Shown: positions 6,786 to 20,531 of the stretch, piece after piece
How the letters are laid out: each line of letters starts with the position of its first letter
Position numbering within the stretch: position 1 is the first letter of the stretch
From: Deltaproteobacteria bacterium
GTDB taxonomy: Bacteria; Myxococcota_A; Polyangia; Haliangiales; J016
DNA length: 45,777 nucleotides
Assembly (NCBI GenBank): GCA_003696105.1
Contig: RFGE01000101.1
Coordinates: 1 to 45,777 of the forward strand
Reading direction: 5' to 3'
The notes under the pieces: model-generated
Seen by the model: the letters and a program-made list of their open reading frames with translations, nothing else
Databases searched by the model: none
Told to the model about the DNA's origin: nothing
Position numbers and translations under genes: made by a program

Positions 6786-8184
6786 TTACAGCAGCCGCCG
6801 CAACCAGCGTTCCTTCGTATCGTCGTACGGCGGGTAGCGAAGCGGTACGTCGAGCCGACTCGACTTGTCGAGCACGCTCTTGCGGTGGCTGAACGTCTCG
6901 AACGTGGCGCGGCCATGGTATGCGCCCATTCCGCTCTCTCCGACTCCGCCGAACGGCAAGTCGGGAACGGACAGGTGTGCGACGACGTCATTGACGCACG
7001 CGCCGCCGGAACTCGTCTCGCGCAAGACGCGGTCCGCGACCGCGCGGTCCTCGGTGAACACGTACAGCGCCAGCGGCTTGTCGCGCCCGGTGACGATCGC
7101 GAGCGCGTCGTCGATCGCGTCGTACGCGATGACCGGGAGAATCGGGCCGAAGATCTCGTCCGCCATCACCGGGCTGTCCAACGCAACGTCGCGCAAGATC
7201 GTCGGAGCGATGTACCGCGCATCGCGATCGACCTCGCCGCCGCACACGATGGCCCCCGACGACAGCAACTTCTCGAGCCGGTCGACGTGTCGCTCGTTGA
7301 TGATGCGCGCGTAGTCGCGGCTTTGCTTCGGATCGTCGCCGTAGAACTGGCGCACGGCGGCCACGAGGTTAGATAGCAACGCGTCGTGAATCGCGCGGTC
7401 GGCGAGCACGTAATCCGGGGCGACGCAGGTCTGGCCCGCGTTGAAGAACTTGCCCCACACGATGCGTCGCGCCGCAACCGCGAGATCCGCGGTGCGATCG
7501 ACGATCGTCGGGCTCTTGCCGCCGAGTTCCAACGTGACCGGCGTGAGATGCTTGGCGGCCGCGGCCATGACGATCCGCCCGACGCGCCCGTTGCCCGTGT
7601 AGAAGATATGGTCGAAGCGCTGTTCGAGCAGTGCCGTCGTCTCCGGCACGCCGCCCTCCACGACGGCGACCGCATCCGGGTCGAGGTAGCGCGGCACGAG
7701 ATCGGCCAGGACGCGCGACGTGTTGGCGGACACCTCCGACGGCTTGACGACCGCACAGTTGCCCGCGGCCAGCGCGCCGACGAGCGGCGCGAGCGCAAGT
7801 TGGACGGGGTAGTTCCCACGGCGCGATGATGAGAGCGACGCCCAGCGGCTCGCGCACGACGCGACAGCGCGCCGGCTGCAGTGCGATCGGGGCGCGCACG
7901 CGCTCCGGCCGCATCCACCGCCGCAGGTGCCGCCGGGTGTGGTCGATCTCGTTGAGCGTGATCGCGATCTCCGCCATGAAGCCCTCGAAGCGCGACTTGC
8001 CGAGATCGGCCTCGAGTGCGGCCAGCAGGTCGTCCTGGCGCTCGGTCAACAGCGCGCGCAGCCGGCCGATCTGGCGCATGCGCCACTCGTACGAACGCGT
8101 GACTCCGCTGCGAAAGGTGGCGCGCAGTCGGTCGATGCGATCGGCCACGGAAATGTCGTCGCGAATAGGCACCACAGCAGTCAT
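6786..8184 (-). pseudogene. Class-3 aldehyde dehydrogenase, reading frame broken by one extra base
   Basis: NAD(P)-dependent oxidation of an aldehyde to the acid; the family includes fatty-aldehyde and coniferyl-aldehyde dehydrogenases. Translation starts at ATG 8184, supported by AGGAGGT at 8191-8197 with 6-nt spacing. It runs about 122 residues to LGVALIIAPW, then shifts frame. The family continues with NYPVQLALAPLVGALAAG in the next frame. Removing one G from the GGG run at 7815-7817 restores a protein of about 465 residues, the normal family length. Catalytic Glu (TLELGGKSP) and Cys (FFNAGQTCVAP) are intact, as is the C-terminal VNDVVAHLSVPDLPFGGVGESG. The otherwise perfect conservation suggests either a very recent mutation or a sequencing/assembly error. 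It follows nuoN by 74 bases on the same strand and may be read from the nuo transcript. Confidence 0.85.
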
Positions 8185-8258: not shown

Positions 8259-9773
8259 CTACCAGAACGAGAGGTGGGCGGCCGCGAGGTCCAGCAGTGG
8301 CGACCAGTACACGCCCAACAGAATGAGCGGTACGGTCATCGCGACGATCAGCGCGGTGTGCGGGCGGTGGATGGCAACCGGCGAGTCGTCCCCGGCGGGA
8401 GCCCCCTCGTAGCCGAAGTACATCGCCTTGAGGATCTTGGCGTAGTAGAACAGGCTGATCGCACTGTTCAGCACGCCGATCAGGGCGATCGCCCACAGAA
8501 GCGCACCGCCCTCGCGGATGAGCGCCGCGAACAGCAGGAACTTGCCCGCGAAGCCCGCCGTGGGCGGCAGGCCGGTGAGGCTCACCAGGAATACCGCCAT
8601 GCACGCGGCGACGAGCGGCGCGCGATAACCGAGGCGATGGAACGCCCGCAGATCCTCCCCGAGTCCGCGCTCGGCCACGGCGCACACGACGCCGAACGCG
8701 CCGAGGTTCATGAACAAGTACACCGCGAGATAGAACATCATCGCGGTCATGCCGTCGTCTCCGGTGACGAGCATCCCCATCATGACGTAGCCGGCGTGGG
8801 CGATCGAGGAGTACGCGAGCAGCCGCTTGACGTTGGTCTGGACCAGCGCAACCAAGTTGCCGTACGTCATCGTCATTACGGCGACGGCGCCGAGCAGCAT
8901 CGGCCACGGATGGCTCCCGAACAGGCTGTCGGCATCGGCGAACACCTCGTCCGGCACCGCCGCCACGAAAAACCGCGCGAGTAGTGCGAAGCCAGCCGCC
9001 TTGGGGCCGACCGACAAGAACGCGGTGACCGGCGTCGGCGCGCCCTCGTAGACGTCCGGGCACCACTGGTGGAACGGAACGACCGCGATCTTGTAGCCGA
9101 AGCCGGCGAGCGTCAGCGCCACGCCGATCGTCAGGGTCATCGGATTGTGCGCCGTCAGCTCGGCGGCCGCGATCCCAGCGAGCGAAGTCGTGCCGGTGAG
9201 CCCGTACAGCAGGGACAGACCGTACAGCATGCATCCCGACGCGACGCCGCCGTAGATCGCGTACTTGAGCGCGGCTTCCGACGACTTGCGATCGCGGTGC
9301 TTGAAGCCGGCGAGCGCGAACGACAGGATGGACACGGTCTCCAAGCTCAGATACGCGAGCAGCAAATCCGTCGCCGACGCCATGACGAACATGCCGAGGC
9401 ACACGGTGAGCGTCAGCGCGTAGAACTCGGCGGCGTCGCGATCGTTCTGATCGTAGTCGACGGCGTCCCTTGCGCGCGTCGCCATCACGCCCACCACGAC
9501 GGTGGCCACGACGAACAACATCTTCCAGAAGTCGCCGTACGGATCGCGCGCGATCAGTCCGCCAAACAGTCCCTCCGCGCCACCGGCTCCGGGCGCGGTC
9601 GCGACCAGCGCGAGCGCGGCCCCGATGCTCGCCGCGGTCGCAATGCCCCCGGCGACCATCCGGCTCGACCCGCGCTGGACCAGGTCGACGACGAGCAGGG
9701 CGATCACGCCCGCGCCGAGCACGAGTTCCGGTGCAAACGACCGGAGGGAGTCGATATTGCTGAGGGCGTTCAT
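8259..9773 (-). CDS. nuoN: NADH-quinone oxidoreductase subunit N (antiporter-like)
   Basis: Membrane proton-pumping subunit of complex I, last gene of the operon. The 504-residue polytopic protein has about 14 hydrophobic segments. Conserved pieces are LAYLSLETVSILSFALAGF, the helix-7-region Lys in AALKYAIYGGVASG, and PFHQWCPDVYEGAPTPVTAF. LLAYSSIAHAGYVMMGM and GLPPTAGFAGKFLLF are also present. It begins 9 bases after the nuoM stop. No added domain is apparent, unlike several upstream subunits. Confidence 0.95.
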   Translation of the reverse strand: MNALSNIDSLRSFAPELVLGAGVIALLVVDLVQRGSSRMVAGGIATAASIGAALALVATAPGAGGAEGLFGGLIARDPYGDFWKMLFVVATVVVGVMATRARDAVDYDQNDRDAAEFYALTLTVCLGMFVMASATDLLLAYLSLETVSILSFALAGFKHRDRKSSEAALKYAIYGGVASGCMLYGLSLLYGLTGTTSLAGIAAAELTAHNPMTLTIGVALTLAGFGYKIAVVPFHQWCPDVYEGAPTPVTAFLSVGPKAAGFALLARFFVAAVPDEVFADADSLFGSHPWPMLLGAVAVMTMTYGNLVALVQTNVKRLLAYSSIAHAGYVMMGMLVTGDDGMTAMMFYLAVYLFMNLGAFGVVCAVAERGLGEDLRAFHRLGYRAPLVAACMAVFLVSLTGLPPTAGFAGKFLLFAALIREGGALLWAIALIGVLNSAISLFYYAKILKAMYFGYEGAPAGDDSPVAIHRPHTALIVAMTVPLILLGVYWSPLLDLAAAHLSFW

Positions 9774-9782
9774 GGCGGTCGG

Positions 9783-11858
9783 CTACCCGGCGACGGAGAG
9801 GACGATGTCCCGCAGATCCGCGAGCCCCGTGTGGATGAGGTTGAGCGCCGGCATCGGATAGAAGCCGAGGACGAACACGATCACGGCGAGCGGCACGAGC
9901 ATCAGCAACTCGCGCTTGGTCAAGTCCTGGCGCAGCGCCTCGGACCACTTCGTATTGAACTGTCCGAGCATGATCCGCTGCATCGCCCACAAGTGGTAGG
10001 CCGCCGTGACCACCACGCCGGTCGCGGCCAGGATCACCAACAGCTGGTACCGATTGAACGCGCCGAGGAACACCAGCGCCTCCCCGATGAATCCCGACAG
10101 GCCGGGCAGGCCGAGGGACGCCATGAACGCGAACCCAAAGAACGCCGCGTAGACCGGCATCTTGCTCGCGACGCCGCCGAATGCGTTGATGTCGCGCGTG
10201 TGGGCGCGGTCGTAGATGACGCCGACGAGTAGGAACAGCATCGACGTGATCGTCCCGTGGTTGAACATCTGCATCATCGCGCCGGATAGCCCCTGGCTCG
10301 TGAATGCCGCCATGCCGAGCAACACGAAGCCCATGTGCGACACGGACGAGTAGGCGACCATCTTCTTGAGGTCCGTCTGGGCGAACGCGCAGAACGCGCC
10401 GTACAGGATGTTGATGACACCAAACATGGCGATGGCGCCGGCCGCCCACACGGTCGCGTCGGGCAGGATCGCGTAGTTCATGCGGAACATGCCGTACGTG
10501 CCCATCTTCAGCAGCACGCCGGCCAAGATCACGGAGATCGCCGTAGGCGCCTCGACGTGCGCATCGGGAAGCCACGTGTGGAACGGGAACATGGGCACTT
10601 TGATCGCGAACCCGATGAACAGCGCAATCCATACGATGTGCGTGAACTTCACGCCCAGGATGGGACCGGCCGCCGCGTAGTCGTTGAGGTGGGCCATCTT
10701 CATCAGGTCGAACGTGTGCGCCGTCGGCGTGCCGTCGATCAGCGCGAGCGGTTGGCCGTGGGCGAGAGCAACTCCGGGGTCGCCAGACGTGTAGTACAGC
10801 GCGATCAGCGCCAACAGCATCAACACGGAGCCCGCCAACGTGTACAGGAAGAACTTGATCGCGGCGTACTCCTTGCGCGGCCCGCCCCAAATGCCGATGA
10901 GGAAGTACATCGGCAACAGCATCACTTCCCAGAACACGTAGAACAGGAAGAAGTCGAGGGCGACGAACGTGCCCATCATGCCGGTCTCGAGCAGCAGGAA
11001 CATCATCATGTAGCCGCGGACGTGCTTGGAAATCGTCCACGACGAGATGCAGGCGATGAACGACACGAGCGCCGTCAGCAGCACCATGAGGATGGAGATC
11101 CCGTCGACACCGAAGAAGAACTCGATGTTGAACGACTCGATCCACGTGGTGTGCGCGACGAACTGAAGGCCCCAGTTGCCGTCCGCAAGGCCAATCGATG
11201 GATCGAACTGCCGCCAGACGTATACGGCGAGCACGAGCGGCACCGAGACGAACGCGAGCGTGGTCCAGCGCACGAGGTCGTCGCGGCCCTTCGGCAGGAA
11301 CATCAAAACGAACATCCCGAGCAGTGGGATGAAGGTCATCAGCACGAGCACGTGCCGGTACAGCCAACTTCCGCCGGCCTGTAGCCGCACCGCGGCGACG
11401 TGCGCGTCACCGCCGGCATCCGAGCTGGTCGCCGGCAGACTCGCGTCGTTCGTCAGAATCTGCAGGGCGCCGAACCACTGGCGCTGTCGGCTGTCCTTGG
11501 GTGGCGCAAACTGCACGGTGAACGAAGCCGACTGCCCCGGCTCGAGCGCGTCGGGCACGCCGTCGACCGAGAACACCGGCCGCACCGGCTCGCCCGCCGG
11601 GTTGCCCGCGGCCGCTTCCACGCGCTTGACGAATCCCTCCTCGATCGCGCGAACGCCGAAGATGCGTAGCGTCGCGTCGCCGGCGTTCGTGATCGTCACC
11701 GCGGCAGCCCCGGACGCATCACCGAAATCGATGGTGCGCGTCGACAGGTGGACGCGCGGAGCGGCGTCGTACGCATCGCCGGCGACGGCTCCGGCCGGAA
11801 CGAGAGCGATCGCGGCCGCGACGGCGGCAGACCAACGGGTACGGTGCGTCTTTGTCAT
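9783..11858 (-). CDS. nuoM: NADH-quinone oxidoreductase subunit M with N-terminal signal peptide and ASH-like beta domain
   Basis: Antiporter-like proton-pumping subunit. The 691-residue length exceeds the usual 490-520. Residues 1-27 read as a Sec signal or anchor helix (SAAVAAAIALVPAGAVAG). Residues 33-160 resemble a choice-of-anchor D / ASPM-SPD2-Hydin beta-sandwich: STRTIDFGD, AAVTITNAGDATLRIFGV, LEPGQSASFTVQFAPP and GALQILTNDAS. The NuoM core starts near 167 (LYRHVLVLMTFIPLLGMF) and has MLLPMYFLIGIWGG, PFHTWLPDAHVEAPTAISVI and KKMVAYSSVSHMGFVLLG. The ATG at 11858 lies 10 bases after the nuoL stop and opens the signal peptide. There is no stop or frameshift between extension and core, so the fusion is real in this sequence. 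The extension should lie in the periplasm. Its role is unknown. Confidence 0.93.
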   Translation of the reverse strand: MTKTHRTRWSAAVAAAIALVPAGAVAGDAYDAAPRVHLSTRTIDFGDASGAAAVTITNAGDATLRIFGVRAIEEGFVKRVEAAAGNPAGEPVRPVFSVDGVPDALEPGQSASFTVQFAPPKDSRQRQWFGALQILTNDASLPATSSDAGGDAHVAAVRLQAGGSWLYRHVLVLMTFIPLLGMFVLMFLPKGRDDLVRWTTLAFVSVPLVLAVYVWRQFDPSIGLADGNWGLQFVAHTTWIESFNIEFFFGVDGISILMVLLTALVSFIACISSWTISKHVRGYMMMFLLLETGMMGTFVALDFFLFYVFWEVMLLPMYFLIGIWGGPRKEYAAIKFFLYTLAGSVLMLLALIALYYTSGDPGVALAHGQPLALIDGTPTAHTFDLMKMAHLNDYAAAGPILGVKFTHIVWIALFIGFAIKVPMFPFHTWLPDAHVEAPTAISVILAGVLLKMGTYGMFRMNYAILPDATVWAAGAIAMFGVINILYGAFCAFAQTDLKKMVAYSSVSHMGFVLLGMAAFTSQGLSGAMMQMFNHGTITSMLFLLVGVIYDRAHTRDINAFGGVASKMPVYAAFFGFAFMASLGLPGLSGFIGEALVFLGAFNRYQLLVILAATGVVVTAAYHLWAMQRIMLGQFNTKWSEALRQDLTKRELLMLVPLAVIVFVLGFYPMPALNLIHTGLADLRDIVLSVAG

Positions 11859-11868
11859 CGTGAAGTCT

Positions 11869-14220
11869 CTAGTTGGCGAAATGCCCCAAGATAGCCAGCA
11901 GGACGACGCCGACGGCGATGCCGAGGGCGTAGTTGTTGATTCGGCCGGTCTGTATCCGTCGCGCCTGGCGCCCGAGTGCCAGCAGCCCGTGCGCGACACC
12001 GTTGACCGCGCCATCCACGAACATGCGGTCGATGAACCCGCCCAGCCATGCAGCGGCTCGACCGACTGCGCCGACGAAGTTGACCGCCCAGTCGATGATG
12101 TGGGCGTCGAACCATGCGAGCCACCGCGCGGTCGCCTTGAAACCGCGGACGAATGTCGCCTGATACAGTTCGTCGACCCAGTACTTGTTGTACAGCAGCT
12201 CGTGGACGCGGTCATAGCGGGCCTTGAGCGCTGCCATGCGCGCCGCCGTTCGCCGCTCGTCGAAGTAGAAGTAACGCGCGAGCAGGAACCCGGCCGTGGC
12301 GATTGCGATGGACGCAAACACGAGCGCGTACTCGAGCGCGTGCGAGCTGAACACGCCCTCGGCTTCGCGGAAGGGCCCATTGGCCATCACGGGCTCCAGC
12401 CACGCCTCGAAAATTGGGTGGAAGCCGAGATAGTGCGGCAGTCCGAGCGCGCCGGTGACGACGGCGAGGACGGCGAGGACCCATAGCACGCCCGTCATGT
12501 TGAGCGGCGACTCGTGACAGTGCTTGCGGATGTCCTCCGTCGGCTCGCGCCGGTGGAACGTCATGTAGTAGCTGCGGAACATGTAAAAGGCGGTGCAGCC
12601 CGCCGCGAGGAAGCCGATCGCCCAGATCAACCACCCGGGCACGAGGGTCGCCCCGTTCGACATCGCCTTCCACAGGATCTCGTCTTTGGAGTAGAAGCCC
12701 GCGGCGATCGGGAAGCCGGCGATCGAGATGCACGCGATCAGGTACGTGAGCCGCGTCTTCGGCATGACCGAGGCGAGACCGCCCATGTTGCGCATGTCCT
12801 GGGGGTCGTGCGGATCGGGTGCGTTGCGCAGCGCGCTGTGTGGCGTCGGCCCGTCGTCGTGATCGCCGTCGCCGTGTCCGTGGTGCTCGAGGAAGTGCAT
12901 CCCGTGGATCACGCTGCCCGAACCGAGGAACAGGCACGCCTTGAAGCAGGCGTGCGTGAGCAGGTGAAACACGCCGACCCACCACGCGCCGACGCCGACG
13001 CCGATGAACATGAAGCCGAGCTGAGAAACCGTCGAGTACGCGAGCACTTTCTTGATGTCGTACTGAAACAGCGCCATCGTCGCGGCGAACAGGGAGGTCG
13101 CCGCGCCGACGAACGCAACGATCGACATCGCGCCGGGCGACAAGAAGTACAGGAAATTCAAGCGCGCGATCATGTACACACCGGCGGTGACCATGGTCGC
13201 GGCGTGGATGAGGGCCGACACCGGCGTGGGGCCGGCCATTGCGTCCGGCAGCCACACGTACAACGGGATTTGCGCGGATTTGCCGGTCGCGCCGACGAAA
13301 AAGAACAGACAGATGAGGAACACGACCGGGATGCCGGCGATGTCCATCGCCAGCAGGCGGTCGACCACCGGGCGCGTCGTCGTCCCGTCGACCGCGCGCT
13401 CCGTGAGCGCCAACTGCTGCTGCAGTTCGCCGAAGTGAACGGTGCCGCCGAGCCGGACCTCGGCAGGCCCGGCCGGCTCCGGCTCCTCGGCGGCCGGGTC
13501 GAGACGCGTTACCTGCGCGTAGCGATCGCCCCTATCGTCGACGCGATCCGCCTTCACGGCGGTCGACGCGGCCGACACGGACCAGAACAGCAGGAACAGG
13601 CCGCACACGAACGCGAAGTCGCCCACGCGGTTGACGACGAACGCCTTCATGCCGGCCGTCGCCTTGGCGAAGTCCTGATACCAGAAGCCGATGAGCAGGT
13701 AGGAACACAGGCCGACGCCCTCCCAGCCGAAGAACATCAGCACGAACGTGTCGCCGAGGACGAGCAGGAGCATGGCGAACACGAACAGGTTCAGGTAACA
13801 GAAGAACCGCCAGTACGCCTTCTCCTCGGCCATGTATCCGGTCGAGTAGATGTGGATCAGCGTGCCGATGCCGGTGATGATCAGAGCCATCGTCCCCGAC
13901 AGTTGATCCATCACGAACGAGAAGTGGACGCGGAAGTCACCGACCTCGAACATGGGAAACAAGTCGGTGCGCAGGGTCCGTTCGCCCGCCGGCAATCCGA
14001 GCAGCCGGACGAACGCGACACAGGCGACGGCGAACGCCGCGAGCATCGCGCCGATGGCGATCGTGTGGTTGGCCTTCTTGCCGATCGCATCTTGCAGCTT
14101 CTTGCCCAAAATGCCGTTGATCGCCGCGCCGACGAACGGGAACAGGGCGATCAGCCACAGGTAGGGCACGTCCGTAACGGACTGAAATGCGGCCGCGCGG
14201 AGAATGTCTGTGGTCTCCAT
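11869..14220 (-). CDS. nuoL: NADH-quinone oxidoreductase subunit L, with hydrophilic insertions
   Basis: Distal antiporter-like subunit with the lateral helix, 783 residues from the ATG at 14220 (usual length 610-650). Conserved motifs are MDQLSGTMALIITGIG, FFGWEGVGLCSYLLIGFW, YVWLPDAMAGPTPVSALIHA and KKVLAYSTVSQLGFMFIG. An unusually long hydrophilic loop (about 217-292, rich in Asp/Arg/Glu) separates two core helices. A His/Asp-rich loop (HFLEHHGHGDGDHDD, about 442-456) follows the conserved SVIHGMH. The C-terminal region carries the long traverse helix plus a Trp-rich tail. A GTG at 14232, directly after the nuoK stop, would add four residues. I prefer the ATG because GGGA sits about 7 nt before it. 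Confidence 0.93.
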   Translation of the reverse strand: METTDILRAAAFQSVTDVPYLWLIALFPFVGAAINGILGKKLQDAIGKKANHTIAIGAMLAAFAVACVAFVRLLGLPAGERTLRTDLFPMFEVGDFRVHFSFVMDQLSGTMALIITGIGTLIHIYSTGYMAEEKAYWRFFCYLNLFVFAMLLLVLGDTFVLMFFGWEGVGLCSYLLIGFWYQDFAKATAGMKAFVVNRVGDFAFVCGLFLLFWSVSAASTAVKADRVDDRGDRYAQVTRLDPAAEEPEPAGPAEVRLGGTVHFGELQQQLALTERAVDGTTTRPVVDRLLAMDIAGIPVVFLICLFFFVGATGKSAQIPLYVWLPDAMAGPTPVSALIHAATMVTAGVYMIARLNFLYFLSPGAMSIVAFVGAATSLFAATMALFQYDIKKVLAYSTVSQLGFMFIGVGVGAWWVGVFHLLTHACFKACLFLGSGSVIHGMHFLEHHGHGDGDHDDGPTPHSALRNAPDPHDPQDMRNMGGLASVMPKTRLTYLIACISIAGFPIAAGFYSKDEILWKAMSNGATLVPGWLIWAIGFLAAGCTAFYMFRSYYMTFHRREPTEDIRKHCHESPLNMTGVLWVLAVLAVVTGALGLPHYLGFHPIFEAWLEPVMANGPFREAEGVFSSHALEYALVFASIAIATAGFLLARYFYFDERRTAARMAALKARYDRVHELLYNKYWVDELYQATFVRGFKATARWLAWFDAHIIDWAVNFVGAVGRAAAWLGGFIDRMFVDGAVNGVAHGLLALGRQARRIQTGRINNYALGIAVGVVLLAILGHFAN

Positions 14221-14232
14221 TGGTGATCCCAC

Positions 14233-14553
14233 TCAGTCGTGGAGCATCGTGGTGTCGTCGGCGTCGATCGACCGAAAGTGGCGATACACCGCGAGCACAA
14301 TTGCGAGCGCGACCGCCGCTTCCGCCGCGGCGAGCACGATGATGAACACGGAGAACACCTGGCCGCCAATGCCGCCCTCGACGAAGTGCGAAAACGCGAC
14401 GAAGTTGATCGACGCGGCATTGAGCAGCAGTTCGACCCCCATGAGAATCGCCACGGCACTGGTGCGCGTTGCGACGGTGAACAGCCCGATCGCGAACAGC
14501 GCGGCGGAAACGACGAGGTAGTGGGTCAAGCCCACGTCCATGATGGCATCCAT
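14233..14553 (-). CDS. nuoK: NADH-quinone oxidoreductase subunit K
   Basis: Small membrane subunit of 106 residues with three transmembrane helices. The family motif ILMGVELLLNAASINFVAFSH contains the conserved membrane Glu of helix 2, and AAAEAAVALAIVLAVYR contains the second. It begins 6 bases after the nuoJ stop and ends against nuoL. Length and motifs are ordinary. Confidence 0.95.
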   Translation of the reverse strand: MDAIMDVGLTHYLVVSAALFAIGLFTVATRTSAVAILMGVELLLNAASINFVAFSHFVEGGIGGQVFSVFIIVLAAAEAAVALAIVLAVYRHFRSIDADDTTMLHD

Positions 14554-14559
14554 GCTGCG

Positions 14560-15285
14560 TTACTCCAGTCGATCGAGTCCGGGCGCCTCAGCGGGGTCGG
14601 CCGGCGGGTCCTTGGCTGCGCGGCGGGCGATGACCATGGCGCCGACGAGCGCCATCAACAGCACCACGGAAATCAACTCGAACGGCAGCAGATACTCGCG
14701 CAGGAGCGCATCGCCGAGGCGCGCCGTCGTCGGAGTCGCGACCGCCTCGACAACGGCCCAGTCGGTGTCGAGCGCGACCATCGCCAACAACAGCGCGACG
14801 AGCACGGCCGCACCGGCACCCGCTCCGCGTTGAACCGCCCGGTTCGTGAGCTGAATCGCGGAGATGCGATTGGTCAGCAAGACGGCGAACAGGATCAGAA
14901 CCAGGATCCCGCCGATGTAGATGACCAGTTGCGCAATCCCGAGGAAGTCCGCGCCGATGAACAGGTACAGCCCGGCCACGCCGACGAGCGTCCCCATCAG
15001 GAAGAACCCCGAATACAGGATGTTCGTGGACATCGCGACCCCGCCCGCCGAGGCGATGACCAGCGTCGCCAACGCGCCGAAAACGAGGCCGCCGACCTGC
15101 AGGTGCAGCGTCGTGATCACGACGACGGACACGTACGCCAGGCCGGCAGCGACGCCCACGACCAGCGGCAGCACGACCAGGCCGGCGATGAGGCTGTGGC
15201 GGCGATCGACGCCGAACAGGCGCAGCAACGCGCTCAGGCCGAGCCCGACCAGAGCGACGATTGCGATGACTATGAGCGCACGCAT
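14560..15285 (-). CDS. nuoJ: NADH-quinone oxidoreductase subunit J with extra N-terminal helices
   Basis: Membrane subunit of complex I, 241 residues against the usual 165-200. The NuoJ core begins near residue 66 (VFGALATLVIASAGGVAMS) and continues with GLYLFIGADFLGIAQLVIYIGGILVLILF, the helix-3 region involved in active/resting transitions. Residues 1-65 form two additional hydrophobic stretches (ALIVIAIVALVGLGLSAL and AGLVVLPLVVGVAAGLAYV) with no counterpart in standard NuoJ. The start is supported by GAGGAG 7 nt upstream of the ATG at 15285, so the extension is likely translated. The gap to nuoI is 27 bases. Confidence 0.92.
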   Translation of the reverse strand: MRALIVIAIVALVGLGLSALLRLFGVDRRHSLIAGLVVLPLVVGVAAGLAYVSVVVITTLHLQVGGLVFGALATLVIASAGGVAMSTNILYSGFFLMGTLVGVAGLYLFIGADFLGIAQLVIYIGGILVLILFAVLLTNRISAIQLTNRAVQRGAGAGAAVLVALLLAMVALDTDWAVVEAVATPTTARLGDALLREYLLPFELISVVLLMALVGAMVIARRAAKDPPADPAEAPGLDRLE

Positions 15286-15312
15286 CGGGAAACTCCTCGC
15301 GTCGGTTGGCGG

Positions 15313-16278
15313 TCAGCTCGCGTGAGCCTTCTTGACGATCTCGATCGCCTCGCGCGCGGCCTCGGCCGGCGGCTTGCCCTTGCGGATCGTCAGGATCAAC
15401 GCGGTGTCGCGCGTCGCCTGTGCACCGCCGGGTTCACACTTGAAGATGTCGGGATCCTTGCCCTCGAGCATCGCGTCGGCGTAGGCGCGACACGTCGGCC
15501 AACCGCACGCCTCGCAGTCCGTCTGCGCGAGCGCCTGATCGTAGAGGAGGTCTTCGAACTTCTTGAGGTCGTCGCCGGCCTGCTGGACGAGCGGGGCGAG
15601 TTCTTCGGCGCGCTTGACGACGACCTCCTCGGCAATGATCTCGTCGATGCCGCTGTCGGCCGGGGCGCCGCCGAGGCCGTGGTCCAGCCCCCATTGAATC
15701 GCGATCGGATTGTATTGCCGCGCCTTGAGCCGGACCTCGCGCGCGATCTCGCCGCGGCGGCGAGTGTCGACCACCTCTCCCTTGGTCGGCTTGTAGGGGA
15801 CGACGTAGTCGCCGGGGCGAATGAAGCGGAACGTGAGCGACGGAAACGACTCGGTCGCCGCCTCGAACTCGCGAGTGAACCGGATGCACTTGGTCTGCTC
15901 CTCGTCCCCCGGCGCCTTCGCGTCCGTCGGACAGGACTCCACGCAGATGCCGCAGTACATGCACTTGCCGAGATCGATATCGAACCGCGTCATGACGCGG
16001 ACGCCGTCGACCTTTTCGATGTCGATGGTGATGCAGTCGATCGGACAGTCGCGCTCACACGCCTTGCAGGCGGTGCAAATGTCCATGTCGACTTCGAGGA
16101 AGCCGCGATAGCGCTCCGGCAGCGAGTCGACGACCGGTACCGATGTGCGGTCCGGATACTGCACGGTCACCGGCTTGCGGAAGTAGTACGTGGCGGTGAC
16201 GGCCATGCCGTCGAGCACCGACCGCGCACTGTCGAGAATCTGGCTGAAGTAGCCGGTCTTTCGCTGTTTCTCGGCCAT
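15313..16278 (-). CDS. nuoI: NuoI-like 2x[4Fe-4S] subunit fused to an RnfB-type Fe-S domain
   Basis: Peripheral-arm subunit that relays electrons toward the quinone site. It has 321 residues against the usual 160-180. The NuoI part has two ferredoxin motifs, CTACKACERDCP (C68, C71, C74, C78) and CMYCGICVESCP (C106, C109, C112, C116), each binding one [4Fe-4S] cluster. After a basic and helical linker (about 160-250) comes a third motif, C255-x2-C258-x4-C263-x17-C281 (CEACGWPTCRAYADAM then FKCEPGG). This matches the Fe-S domain of RnfB and CO-dehydrogenase/ACS proteins. The last 30 residues (ILTIRKGKPPAEAAREA) are helical. The gene abuts nuoH directly. The extra cluster could be a ferredoxin docking or entry site, which is inference. 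Confidence 0.92.
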   Translation of the reverse strand: MAEKQRKTGYFSQILDSARSVLDGMAVTATYYFRKPVTVQYPDRTSVPVVDSLPERYRGFLEVDMDICTACKACERDCPIDCITIDIEKVDGVRVMTRFDIDLGKCMYCGICVESCPTDAKAPGDEEQTKCIRFTREFEAATESFPSLTFRFIRPGDYVVPYKPTKGEVVDTRRRGEIAREVRLKARQYNPIAIQWGLDHGLGGAPADSGIDEIIAEEVVVKRAEELAPLVQQAGDDLKKFEDLLYDQALAQTDCEACGWPTCRAYADAMLEGKDPDIFKCEPGGAQATRDTALILTIRKGKPPAEAAREAIEIVKKAHAS

Positions 16279-18375
16279 TTACGCGCCTCGCAGTTCCCAG
16301 ACGGTCGTCGTCTTGCGGACGTGGTTCACGCGGGCGAGGAACGCCGTGAAGATGCCGAGACCGCCGACGACGAACAGCAGGACGCGAGCGACCGTCTGGG
16401 CGATATCGGGGAGCAACCAGGTCCACAGCGCGGCGCCGATGAGCGACGCCAGCGCGATCGGCAAAAAGTACTTCCAGCACATGTTCATCATGTGGTCCAC
16501 GCGGAACCGGGGCAGGGTCCACCGGATCCAGATGCACACGAAGATCATCGCGATCACCTTGATGGCGAACACGCCGAACGCCAGCAAGTGCAACACGCGC
16601 GAGTTCTCGATCTCGATCGGGTCGGCAAATGGGATGTTCCACCCGCCCAGGAAGACGGTGGTCGTCACGGCGCCGATGACGATCAGGTTCACCCACTCGG
16701 CGAGAGCAAAGATCGAGAACCGGAACCCGGAATATTCGGTGTTGTAGCCGGACACGAGTTCCGATTCCGCCTCGGGCAGGTCGAACGGCGTGCGGTTGCC
16801 CTCCGCCAGGGCGCTGATGAAGAAGATGAAGAAGCACGCGAACGAAAACGGGCTCGCGAACAGGTTCCACTCCCACGGCATGGCGCCCTGCGACTTGACG
16901 AGGTCTTGCATCGACAGGCTGCCGACGCCGATGACGACGGACAGCACCGCGATCGACGCGGGCAGCTCGTAGCTGATGATCTGCGCCGCGGACCGCATGC
17001 CGCCGAGCAGCGACCACTTCGAATTCGACGCCCACCCGCCCATGATCACGCCGACGACGACGATCGACGTGACCGACAGGATGTACAGGATGCCCACGTT
17101 GAAGTCAGCCACCTGCAAGATCGGCGAAAACGGCAGCACGACGAACGTCAGAAAGACGCCGGAGAACACGAGCAGGGGCGATGCGCGAAACAGCACCGGG
17201 TCGGCCTCGCGCGGAATGACGTCTTCTTTCACGATGAGCTTGAGCCCGTCTGCGAGCCACTGCAGCCAGCCGTTGGGCCCCACGCGGTTCGGCCCCGGGC
17301 GAGACTGCATCCGCCCCGAGATCTTGCGCTCCCATACGACGATCAAACCGCCGAGCACGGGAACCGGCAGCACGACGAGCAGCCCCACCGCCACGAGGAT
17401 GAGCGCGTACAAAAACCCGGTCGGAATCGGCTGCGGGCCAGCGTACCGCGGGATTTCGACGCTCACACGACCGCCGTCGCGAATGATCGTGACCGCCGCC
17501 TTCGCCGCGTCGCTCGCGTGCCACACGCGATACAGCGCGACGAACGTTGGCGTCGGCTTGCCGTCGACTTCGGCGAGGATGTCTCCGGCGCGCACGCCGG
17601 CCGCGGCAGCCGGCGACGGAGGCAACCGCGAGTCCTCGTGGGTGTCCACGCCGTTTTGCTCGAGAAAGTCGAGGATCTCGTGGCGCGTGAGCACGCCGTC
17701 GCCGTCGAGATCGGCCCAGCGAAACGTGTCCTCGTCGGTGAACCCGCGGGCCTTGGCTTCGTCGAGGTGCACCTTGCCGTCGGGGCCGCCGACACACTTG
17801 CCGTCGCGCCACCGGCCGCAGTCGTAGCGGCGCAAGAAGCCGATACCCTCGAAGCCTCCGCGCACCCTGCGCACCAAGAGCCCCGATCCGTCCGGCGCGA
17901 GTTCGGCGTCGACGCCGAGCCACGCGGCGAGCCCGCGGCCCTCGCGCTCGCCGAACAGGTGGTGAGCGAGGCGTCGCGCGGTCGGCCGGAACATTTCGAT
18001 GTGCACCGGGTAGTCGCCGGTCGTCGCGATGGTCTCGTATGCGTCGCCGCGGCGCTGGTCGACGCGGACCTGTCCGTCGAACACCATGCGGCCGCCGATC
18101 ACCTGCGCCACGTGGTCGTCGACGTCGACGAGCGCCCTGTGTTTGGATATGCGCGCCGTCAGTTCCACGTCGCGGCCGCCGTCGGCCGCCCCGACGAGAA
18201 CCACGCGGGTGGGCGCGTCCGGATCGGGTTCGACTTCCGGGGCGAGTTCGACGACCAGCACGTCGCCGACCTCCAGGCTCGTCGGCCGCACGTCGCGAAC
18301 CGAGGGGAACTGCGGGTTGCTCTGGCACGCGGCGGCCAGGGCGGCGGCCGCGACCGCGAAGCCGACGGCTTTCAT
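16279..18375 (-). CDS. nuoH: NuoH with N-terminal lipoprotein signal, beta domain, PDZ domain and EF-hand
   Basis: Membrane subunit that forms the quinone-binding boundary. It has 698 residues against the usual 320-400. The NuoH core begins near 318 with [18 protein letters not shown] and carries [54 protein letters not shown] and SGYNTEYSG. Residues 1-17 form a lipoprotein signal with lipobox LAAAC (Cys17). Residues 24-130 look like an IPT/TIG-type beta domain ([16 protein letters not shown]). Residues 149-310 look like [12 protein letters not shown] opens it and [17 protein letters not shown] closes it. Between them lies a canonical EF-hand loop, [12 protein letters not shown] (222-233). 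C186 and C194 may form a disulfide. The stop of nuoD overlaps the ATG, so the signal peptide start is firm. The NuoH N-terminus is normally periplasmic, which fits. Confidence 0.92.
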
Positions 18376-19508
18376 CGATCGATCTCCGGCGCAACGATGT
18401 CGAGGGAAGCGATCAGCGCGACGAGATCCGCGACCATGAGCCCGGCGGACTTGTCGCGGATGACCTGCATCGCGTTGAAGCTGCCGGTGCGGAACCGCGC
18501 GCGGTACGCATTGGTCGTGCCGTCACCGATCACGTAACACAGCATGTCGCCGCGCGCGGCCTCGACCCGGCTGTGCGCCTCTCCCTTGGGTTTGAGCTTC
18601 TTCGGCTTGTTCCAGAACTCGCCCTTCGGGGTCGTCTGAATCAGGTCGAGCGCCTGCCGCAAGATGCGCACCGACTGGCGCCACTCCTCCACGCGGACCC
18701 AGAAGCGATCCCACGAGTCGCCGGTCGTGCCATGCTCGCCGCGCCCGACCGGCACGTCGAACTCGAGCTTCGGATAGACCGAGTAGGGCTCGTCGCGGCG
18801 CACGTCGAAGTCGACGCCCGACGCCCGCAAGTTCGGCCCGACGAGGCCGTAGTCGATCGCCTCCTCGCGCGTGATCACGGCCATGTTGGCGAGCCGCTTG
18901 ATGAAAATTGGGTTGCCGGTGATCAGCCGGTTGAACTCGTCGATGATCGGTTCGAACCGGTCGAGGAAACGCAGCGCCTTGTCGCGCCACGCATCGGTCA
19001 TGTCCCAGCCGACGCCGCCGATGCGGTGATAGTTGTACGTAAGTCGGGCGCCGCACAGCTCCTCGAGCAGGTCGTTGACGTACTCGCGCTCGCGCAACGC
19101 ATACGGGAACGGCGTGATGGCGCCGATGTCCATCGCCATGGCGCCCAAGGCGATGCAGTGCGACGAGATCCGGTTGAACTCGTCCGAGATGACCCGCAGG
19201 TACTCGGCGCGCTCCGGTACTTCGATGTCCGCCAGTTTTTCGACGGCGGTCGCCCACGCATGGTTCGCCGTCATCGCGCAGACGTAGTCGACGCGATCGG
19301 TGTAGGGCATGAAGCCCTCGTACGTGCATTTCTCGGCGATGTGCTCGATCGACCGGTGCAGGTAGCCGACGTCGGGGTCCGCCTCGGCCATGATCTCGCC
19401 GTCGGTGCGCACGATGAACCGGATCACGCCGTGCGTGGAGGGGTGCTGCGGCCCCATGTTCACCGTGATCTCGTCGCCGGTGTCGTATTGCAGGATCAGG
19501 TCGGACAT
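18372..19508 (-). CDS. nuoD: NADH-quinone oxidoreductase subunit D (49-kDa type)
   Basis: Peripheral subunit lining the quinone pocket, 378 residues. The N-terminus has [13 protein letters not shown] with the quinone-site His, followed by [29 protein letters not shown] and [20 protein letters not shown]. The C-terminus has [26 protein letters not shown] and [13 protein letters not shown], corresponding to the family end. It starts one base after the nuoC stop and overlaps nuoH by four bases. NuoB, its direct partner carrying cluster N2, is not encoded between nuoA and nuoC as usual. Confidence 0.95.
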
Positions 19509-19509
19509 G

Positions 19510-20097
19510 TCACTTGTCCTCCTCGGCGTCCACGACGCGCGGCCGCATCCCCTCAGTCTGCGGATGCTCCTTGTCGTACGCGGCGAGCAGTTCGAGCACC
19601 GAGTAGCGCGTGGTCGGCATCGTCCGGTAGCGGTCGGCCTCCTGGTAGTCCTTGCGCATCGGATGGCCGACCCAGTCGTCCGGCATCAACAGGCGCCGCA
19701 GGTCTGGATGGCCGACGTATTGGAGGCCGAGCAGGTCGTACTGCTCGCGCTCGTTCCAGTTCGCGGACCGCCACACGCCGCACACCGACGGCACCACGGG
19801 GCGATCCCGCGGCACCTCCACCTTAATTACGAAGGTGTGATGGTGCTCGTACGAGTACAGGTGGTAGACCGACACCAGCTTGTCGTCGCGCGGATAGTCG
19901 ACCCCGGTGATGCACTGCAGGAAGTCGAACCGAAGCCGCGGGTCGGTCTTGAGGAACGTGCACACGTCGACGAGCTTGTCGGCCGCCACCAGGCAGAACG
20001 CATCCTTGATGCCACCCTCGGCCGGCGTGAACCCGGTCACGGCGTCGCCGAACTCGGTCGCGAGGGCCTCGTAGATCTCGGCCGGTTCCATCGTCAC
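19510..20097 (-). CDS. nuoC: NADH-quinone oxidoreductase subunit C (30-kDa type)
   Basis: Peripheral scaffold subunit, 195 residues. The 30-kDa family signature is [29 protein letters not shown], followed by GHPMRKDY. Two starts are possible: GTG at 20097, overlapping the nuoA stop (GTGA), or ATG at 20091. AGGAGG at 20102-20107 is 4 nt from the GTG and 10 nt from the ATG, so it does not settle the choice. The gene is not fused to nuoD or nuoB. Confidence 0.94.
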
Positions 20098-20531
20098 TTC
20101 GCCTCCTGCGCCGCTCGCGCCGGCGCATCATCGGGCATCAGCGGCTTGCCTTCCGGCCCCCGCACCCAGTCGAGATCGCCCTTGACCCACACGTACGCGA
20201 GCCCGAGCGCGAGAATCGCCACGAACAGGCCGAGTTCGGCGAACGCGATGCCGCCGACGCCGGCGGCCACCCACCGCTTGAACACGACCGCCACCGGATA
20301 GGTGAAGGCGACCTCGACGTCGAACACGAGGAACACCAGCGCGACGATGTAGAAGCGCGGGTTGAAGTTGAACCAGGCCTGGCGCAGCGGCGTCTCGCCG
20401 CACTCGTAGATCTCGAGCTTGGTCTCCTCGTCGACCTTGGGCCGCAGCAGCCAGCCGACGAACAGCGTGATCGCGAGGAAGCCGACGCCGAGGCCGAGGA
20501 AAACCAGGATGTTCGCAAACTCGAATTGCAT
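20094..20531 (-). CDS. nuoA: NADH-quinone oxidoreductase subunit A
   Basis: First gene of the complex I operon. The 145-residue membrane protein has three helices. The conserved matrix loop reads [20 protein letters not shown] (family ExYECGxxP), followed by [16 protein letters not shown]. The C-terminal tail after residue 125 is hydrophilic and slightly long. nuoC follows with a 4-bp overlap, leaving no room for nuoB. Confidence 0.95.

Follow-up and report, generated by a model that had tools for sequence, protein, structure and literature searches.

The operon nuoA-C-D-H-I-J-K-L-M-N occupies positions 8259..20531 on the minus strand of the window, the whole 45,777-nucleotide stretch of DNA that was analysed, and no nuoB, nuoE, nuoF or nuoG is found inside it. 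Its nuoM gene (9783..11858, minus strand, running from 11858 to 9783), which a sequence-only reading had placed at exactly these positions, encodes a protein of 691 residues composed of a signal peptide, an ASH-like domain and a 14-TM antiporter core, and starts with an ATG located a few bases 3' of the nuoL stop codon. The core, residues 165-691 (9783..11366, minus strand), is as normal as that reading had described it: the NuoM model TIGR01972 matches residues 171-682 with 599.4 bits, which passes its curated cut-off of 263.8, and the four pump residues, the TM5 glutamate (E311), the TM7 lysine (K420), the TM8 lysine (K451) and the TM12 glutamate (E593), are all present. These residues are invariant in the aligned set A1 and in the extended relatives, so that, as judged from its sequence, this NuoM would be a working type of subunit.

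Downstream of nuoN, also on the minus strand, an aldehyde dehydrogenase-like gene (6786-8184) is split between two frames. The break, at about 7740-7830 near the motif IIAPWE, is consistent with a small frameshift, which could be a sequencing error or the mark of a pseudogene.

A second complex I without NuoEFG

The extended NuoM belongs to a second complex I that lacks the NADH module; the sequence-only reading had overlooked this point, as well as the detached nuoB and the single origin of the trait in Polyangia. Contigs C131 and C80 of the same genome separately encode a conventional complex I, whose NuoM and NuoH are plain, and the two NuoF genes of the genome lie one in the conventional operon and the other beside a putative formate dehydrogenase. 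The latter NuoF-like gene (L176 8371-10164, on G000 contig C93) adjoins what appears to be an NAD-dependent formate dehydrogenase, and therefore probably does not supply an NADH module to the complex of the window.

The missing NuoB of this complex is probably encoded by a solitary second nuoB (L174 8003-8767, on G000 contig C293), which lies beside iscU- and erpA-like genes. Outside the Polyangiaceae group, most genomes that have an extended NuoM contain a nuoB that shares 77-89% identity, as the closest match, with the gene on C293, and an erpA-like gene was found near the nuoB homologue in all four such neighbourhoods that were read; the conventional nuoB on C131 shares only 46% identity with the C293 gene. 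Neither G092, nor G074, nor any Polyangiaceae member that was examined yielded a nuoB of the C293 type.

The nuoI gene of the operon (15313..16278, minus strand) encodes 321 residues and carries a C-terminal RnfB-type FeS domain (PF04060, E=4.3e-8) at residues 250-277 (15448-15531), which suggests that this NuoEFG-less complex has an additional site of electron entry. Most operons of the extended clade with a readable nuoI keep this domain, which is absent from L201.

Complex I-like enzymes of 11 subunits that lack NuoEFG are already known, for example in Desulfitobacterium hafniense (PMC11238625). The complex of the window resembles them in that its operon has no NADH module genes and that the Q and P modules are present, but it differs in its detached nuoB, in the RnfB-type FeS domain of NuoI, in the exported domains carried by NuoH and NuoM, and in the presence of a conventional complex I in the same genome.

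An exported Ig-like domain before the NuoM core

Residues 1-26 of NuoM (11781..11858, minus strand) form a Sec-type signal peptide, with an n-region, MTKTHRTRWS, that contains three K/R residues, an h-region, AAVAAAIALVPA, and a c-region that ends in an AVA cleavage-type motif. A positive n-region, a hydrophobic core, an AxA-type site and an N-terminus on the outside, judged by rules rather than by a trained predictor, were found in all 19 aligned members, that is, in the window sequence and in 18 of 18 relatives scanned, which bears out the Sec-type signal that had been proposed.

The signal peptide is followed, at residues ~34-162 (11373..11759, minus strand), by a beta-sandwich resembling ASH and choice-of-anchor D domains, and the motifs on which that assignment had been based, AAVTITNAGDATL, FTVQFAPP and GALQILTNDAS, are all present in NuoM. 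The choice_anch_D model NF012200 matches the domain with E=1.9e-8 and 34.8 bits, under its curated cut-off of 45; the domain is thus, on sequence grounds, clearly related to choice-of-anchor D and is not filed as a formal member, because the score falls short of that cut-off. In Pfam, the window domain alone gives weak matches to DUF4232, HYDIN Ig and ASH, and among the 19 aligned members NF012200 matches 14, the Pfam HYDIN/VesB/CFA65 Ig family likewise 14, and ASH eight. A profile of the family searched against the PDB, the check in which a beta-sandwich match was looked for, found as its best hit an Ig domain of FAP65 (E=1.2e-10), and also Hydin (E=1.9e-5). The AlphaFold2 model of the whole NuoM (pTM 0.88) has eight strands over residues 36-161, followed by TM1 from residue 165; block pLDDT values within the domain are mostly 87-96 and fall to 58-67 in a weak loop around residues 71-90. 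Together, the modelled strands and the match of the family profile to Ig domains of known structure, those of FAP65 and Hydin, place the fold among the Ig-like beta-sandwiches, and the earlier assignment was right as to kind. To our knowledge viruses have no NuoM, and on this ground the whole-NuoM model was also compared with viral models by Foldseek; beta-rich proteins were matched, in results that do not give the matching residues.

With the choice-of-anchor D and ASH (ASPM-SPD2-Hydin) families the domain shares the strand pattern, an N-x-G turn and the matches to the NF012200, HYDIN Ig and FAP65 profiles. It differs in that the scores of the window sequence stay under the curated cut-offs, and in that it occurs here as a single copy fused to a 14-TM pump subunit and not in a secreted or ciliary protein.

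When the N-terminus is placed outside, the loops of the NuoM core contain 16 K/R residues inside and four outside. Residues 232-251 correspond to the TMH2-3 beta-hairpin. Solved structures of bacterial complex I place this hairpin in the periplasm, and it is said to lend stability to the arm in the absence of the mammalian subunits NDUFA8 and NDUFS5 (PMC11522691). Because of the charge pattern and the side on which this hairpin lies, the NuoM N-terminus is assigned to the periplasm. A location of the Ig-like domain on the periplasmic face of the pump, joined to TM1 by a linker of ~3 residues, is strongly supported by the sequence, the model and the charge pattern.

Constraint, distribution and single origin of the extension

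The extension recurs in 18 relatives, with 19-39% identity and a separate signal peptide in every case. Its dN/dS in two same-genus genome pairs is ~0.26 and 0.58, compared with 0.10 and 0.23 for the core, and in close pairs it is 52-64% identical, compared with 86-89% for the core; it is under purifying selection, constrained and yet evolving faster than the core. That the true start lies near residue 165-173 and that the upstream frame is coding only by chance is almost certainly wrong, since, although high GC content yields long spurious open frames and most bacterial NuoMs begin near the core, the extension is conserved as protein in relatives from several families with signal peptides of their own, gives a significant domain match and a high-confidence AlphaFold2 model, has a dN/dS below 1 and begins at an ATG next to the nuoL stop codon. 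A search for a conserved alternative start near residue 165 revealed none in the extended clade, and the nuoM reading frame contains no ATG between residue 1 and residue 173; a start at the core is ruled out by this, together with the conservation, the signal peptides and the dN/dS values. An assembly error is likewise ruled out by the occurrence of the same architecture in independent genomes.

Among the 80 nearest named NuoM homologues that were fetched, the extension occurs in five, and the other 75, which come from many phyla, have no such domain, which excludes the extension as an ordinary trait of NuoM. Most of the non-extended homologues begin no more than ~15 residues from the core; three are truncated, and a few high-GC frames continue upstream of an ATG that lies close to the core. 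The extension was detected in 16 of 193 sampled genomes of the class, probably Polyangia of Myxococcota, with a single-sequence query, and in at least four more through searches with the core.

In a maximum-likelihood tree of 73 NuoM cores, which was obtained in a quick search with SH-aLRT support and without bootstraps, and in which row L158 forms a long branch, all 20 extended sequences group in one clade (SH-aLRT 98) that requires one state change. On this tree, the extension was acquired once, in an ancestor of a Polyangia clade, and then kept. Several separate acquisitions are unneeded, as the tree, based on a short search and SH-aLRT only, requires a single change. Byssovorax, a member of the Polyangiaceae, lies inside the clade.

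Divergent NuoM-like proteins from Polyangia genomes (L245-L248, L252-L256 and L258) keep the exported Ig-like domain while retaining few or none of the pump residues at TM5, TM7, TM8 and TM12. In three of them (L245, L246 and L253) the Ig-like domain lies in the middle of a long open frame, after other membrane sequence.

Few membrane proteins are as conserved as the core subunits of complex I, and extra mass usually comes in the form of separate accessory subunits. The window NuoM shares with NuoM, ND4 and Nqo13 the 14-TM core, all pump residues, the TMH2-3 beta-hairpin and the L-M-N position in the operon, but adds a signal peptide and a ~130-residue exported beta-sandwich before TM1, for which no counterpart exists in the 75 fetched homologues outside the extended group. 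The literature on NuoM and NuoH extensions and on NuoM in Myxococcota, as covered by a search of mainly open-access papers, reports no such domains, and we could not find a description of exported domains added to complex I core subunits. Exported domains on both NuoM and NuoH that were kept through deep divergence amount to a natural experiment on the periplasmic face of the membrane arm, in which the conventional complex I of the same genome serves as an internal control, and to which the divergent paralogues that carry the domain without the pump residues add.

The NuoH extension and a proposed role for both domains

The nuoH gene of the operon (16279..18375, minus strand) encodes 698 residues and begins with an exported N-terminal extension of ~318 residues. 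Residues 33-120 (18016..18279, minus strand), which have no Pfam match, are read by us as an IPT/TIG-like beta domain from the sequence pattern, in which the motif (I/V)RDVRP..(L/I)..GD is conserved in relatives, and from the strands of the AlphaFold2 model. Residues 155-309 (17449..17913, minus strand) resemble a PDZ domain interrupted by an EF-hand-like insert: Pfam PDZ_6 matches with E=1.1e-5 and 25.5 bits against a cut-off of 27, EF-hand_6 matches with E=0.0037, and the elements of the model follow a PDZ-like order. Searched against the PDB, the NuoH model matched complex I cores only, among the matches listed. The EF-hand-like motif lies at residues 216-241 (17653-17730), and similar D-x-(D/N)-x-(D/N) loops, which occur in several relatives, suggest binding of Ca2+. 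The ERK motif after NuoH TM1 lines the cytoplasmic quinone entrance, so the N-terminus of NuoH should be periplasmic, on the same side as that of NuoM.

In each of the 19 genomes that yielded both an extended NuoM and the sequence of its cognate NuoH, the latter carries an exported N-terminal extension, ~125-365 residues long. This extension usually bears a lipobox or signal peptide, has the (I/V)RDVRP..(L/I)..GD motif conserved and in most genomes includes a PDZ domain; in three genomes (L149, L202 and L204) it is shorter and has no PDZ. In related complexes with a plain NuoM, NuoH has an extension of only ~15-35 residues or none. The proposal that the two additions are coordinated is borne out by this co-occurrence, and, because the clade has a single origin, the pairing is to be understood as one coordinated state by descent and not as many gains.

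The NuoM ASH domain and the NuoH extension are given a somewhat better than even chance of having a structural role, proposed largely by analogy, in which they jointly cap or brace the membrane arm at its periplasmic face. In this reading, the NuoM of a NuoEFG-less complex I gained an exported ASH-like Ig domain once, in a Polyangia ancestor; the signal peptide sends its N-terminus to the periplasm, which is its normal side, and the domain sits directly on TM1, behind its ~3-residue linker, at the outer face of the pump. Together with the exported IPT and PDZ domains of NuoH, it may cap or brace the periplasmic side of the arm, and might thereby take on a task that in other complexes I falls to beta-hairpins and to accessory subunits of the intermembrane space. 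Terminal extensions stabilise the peripheral arm of complex I in E. coli (PMC8357420), and extra mass outside the core is also thought to be stabilising in Paracoccus (PMC11522691) and in the intermembrane-space subunits of mitochondria; here, by comparison, the additions are covalent N-terminal domains on core subunits of the membrane arm, at the periplasmic side.

The family and fold of the domain, the signal peptides in 19 of 19 members, the K/R distribution of the loops, the periplasmic TMH2-3 hairpin with its reported stabilising effect, the single origin, the co-occurrence with the NuoH extension, the intact pump residues, the purifying selection and the E. coli precedent argue for a brace. 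Against it, the J/K/A region and NuoN lie between NuoH and NuoM in the membrane arm, so that the two subunits are not adjacent and the NuoH extension would have to span this distance to make contact; that the two extensions touch and form the external layer envisaged earlier is plausible. The extension also evolves faster than the core, at a pace that would fit a peripheral or interaction module as well as it would a brace. Some of the divergent paralogues, moreover, keep the domain yet have lost the pump residues, which indicates that the value of the domain is not tied to pumping.

The main rival to a brace is that both extensions are docking modules for an outside partner, such as a periplasmic electron carrier, another respiratory complex, a lipoprotein, the cell wall or an outer-membrane protein, which would place the complex or form a supercomplex. 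This is possible, though rather unlikely. ASH and PDZ domains usually mediate protein-protein interactions, exported-looking proteins of the phylum often contain related choice-of-anchor-D-like domains, one of them being a 2145-residue open frame in the window genome, and the faster evolution of the extension also speaks for docking. However, the operon holds only Nuo genes, no conserved partner gene was seen beside nuoM or nuoH across the families, and the very short TM1 linker, modelled as rigid, would suit docking on the complex itself. A more elaborate form of the layer, a distinctly unlikely one, would have the NuoH domains (IPT and PDZ with the EF-hand-like insert) and the NuoM ASH domain interact across NuoN on the outer face and control or lock the pump, perhaps under the influence of Ca2+; this lineage of complex I would thus have evolved a periplasmic layer of its own from exported domains covalently fused to two core subunits of the membrane arm, and would receive electrons via the RnfB-like NuoI.

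Very unlikely is a role in biogenesis, in which the signal and the exported domain would recruit the secretion or insertion machinery or an assembly factor, and so separate the building of this complex from that of the conventional one. The isoform with both exported extensions does share the window genome with a conventional complex I, and the detached nuoB adjoins Fe-S assembly genes, but a folded domain conserved across families exceeds the needs of targeting, and nuoL, nuoN and nuoK carry no such signal.
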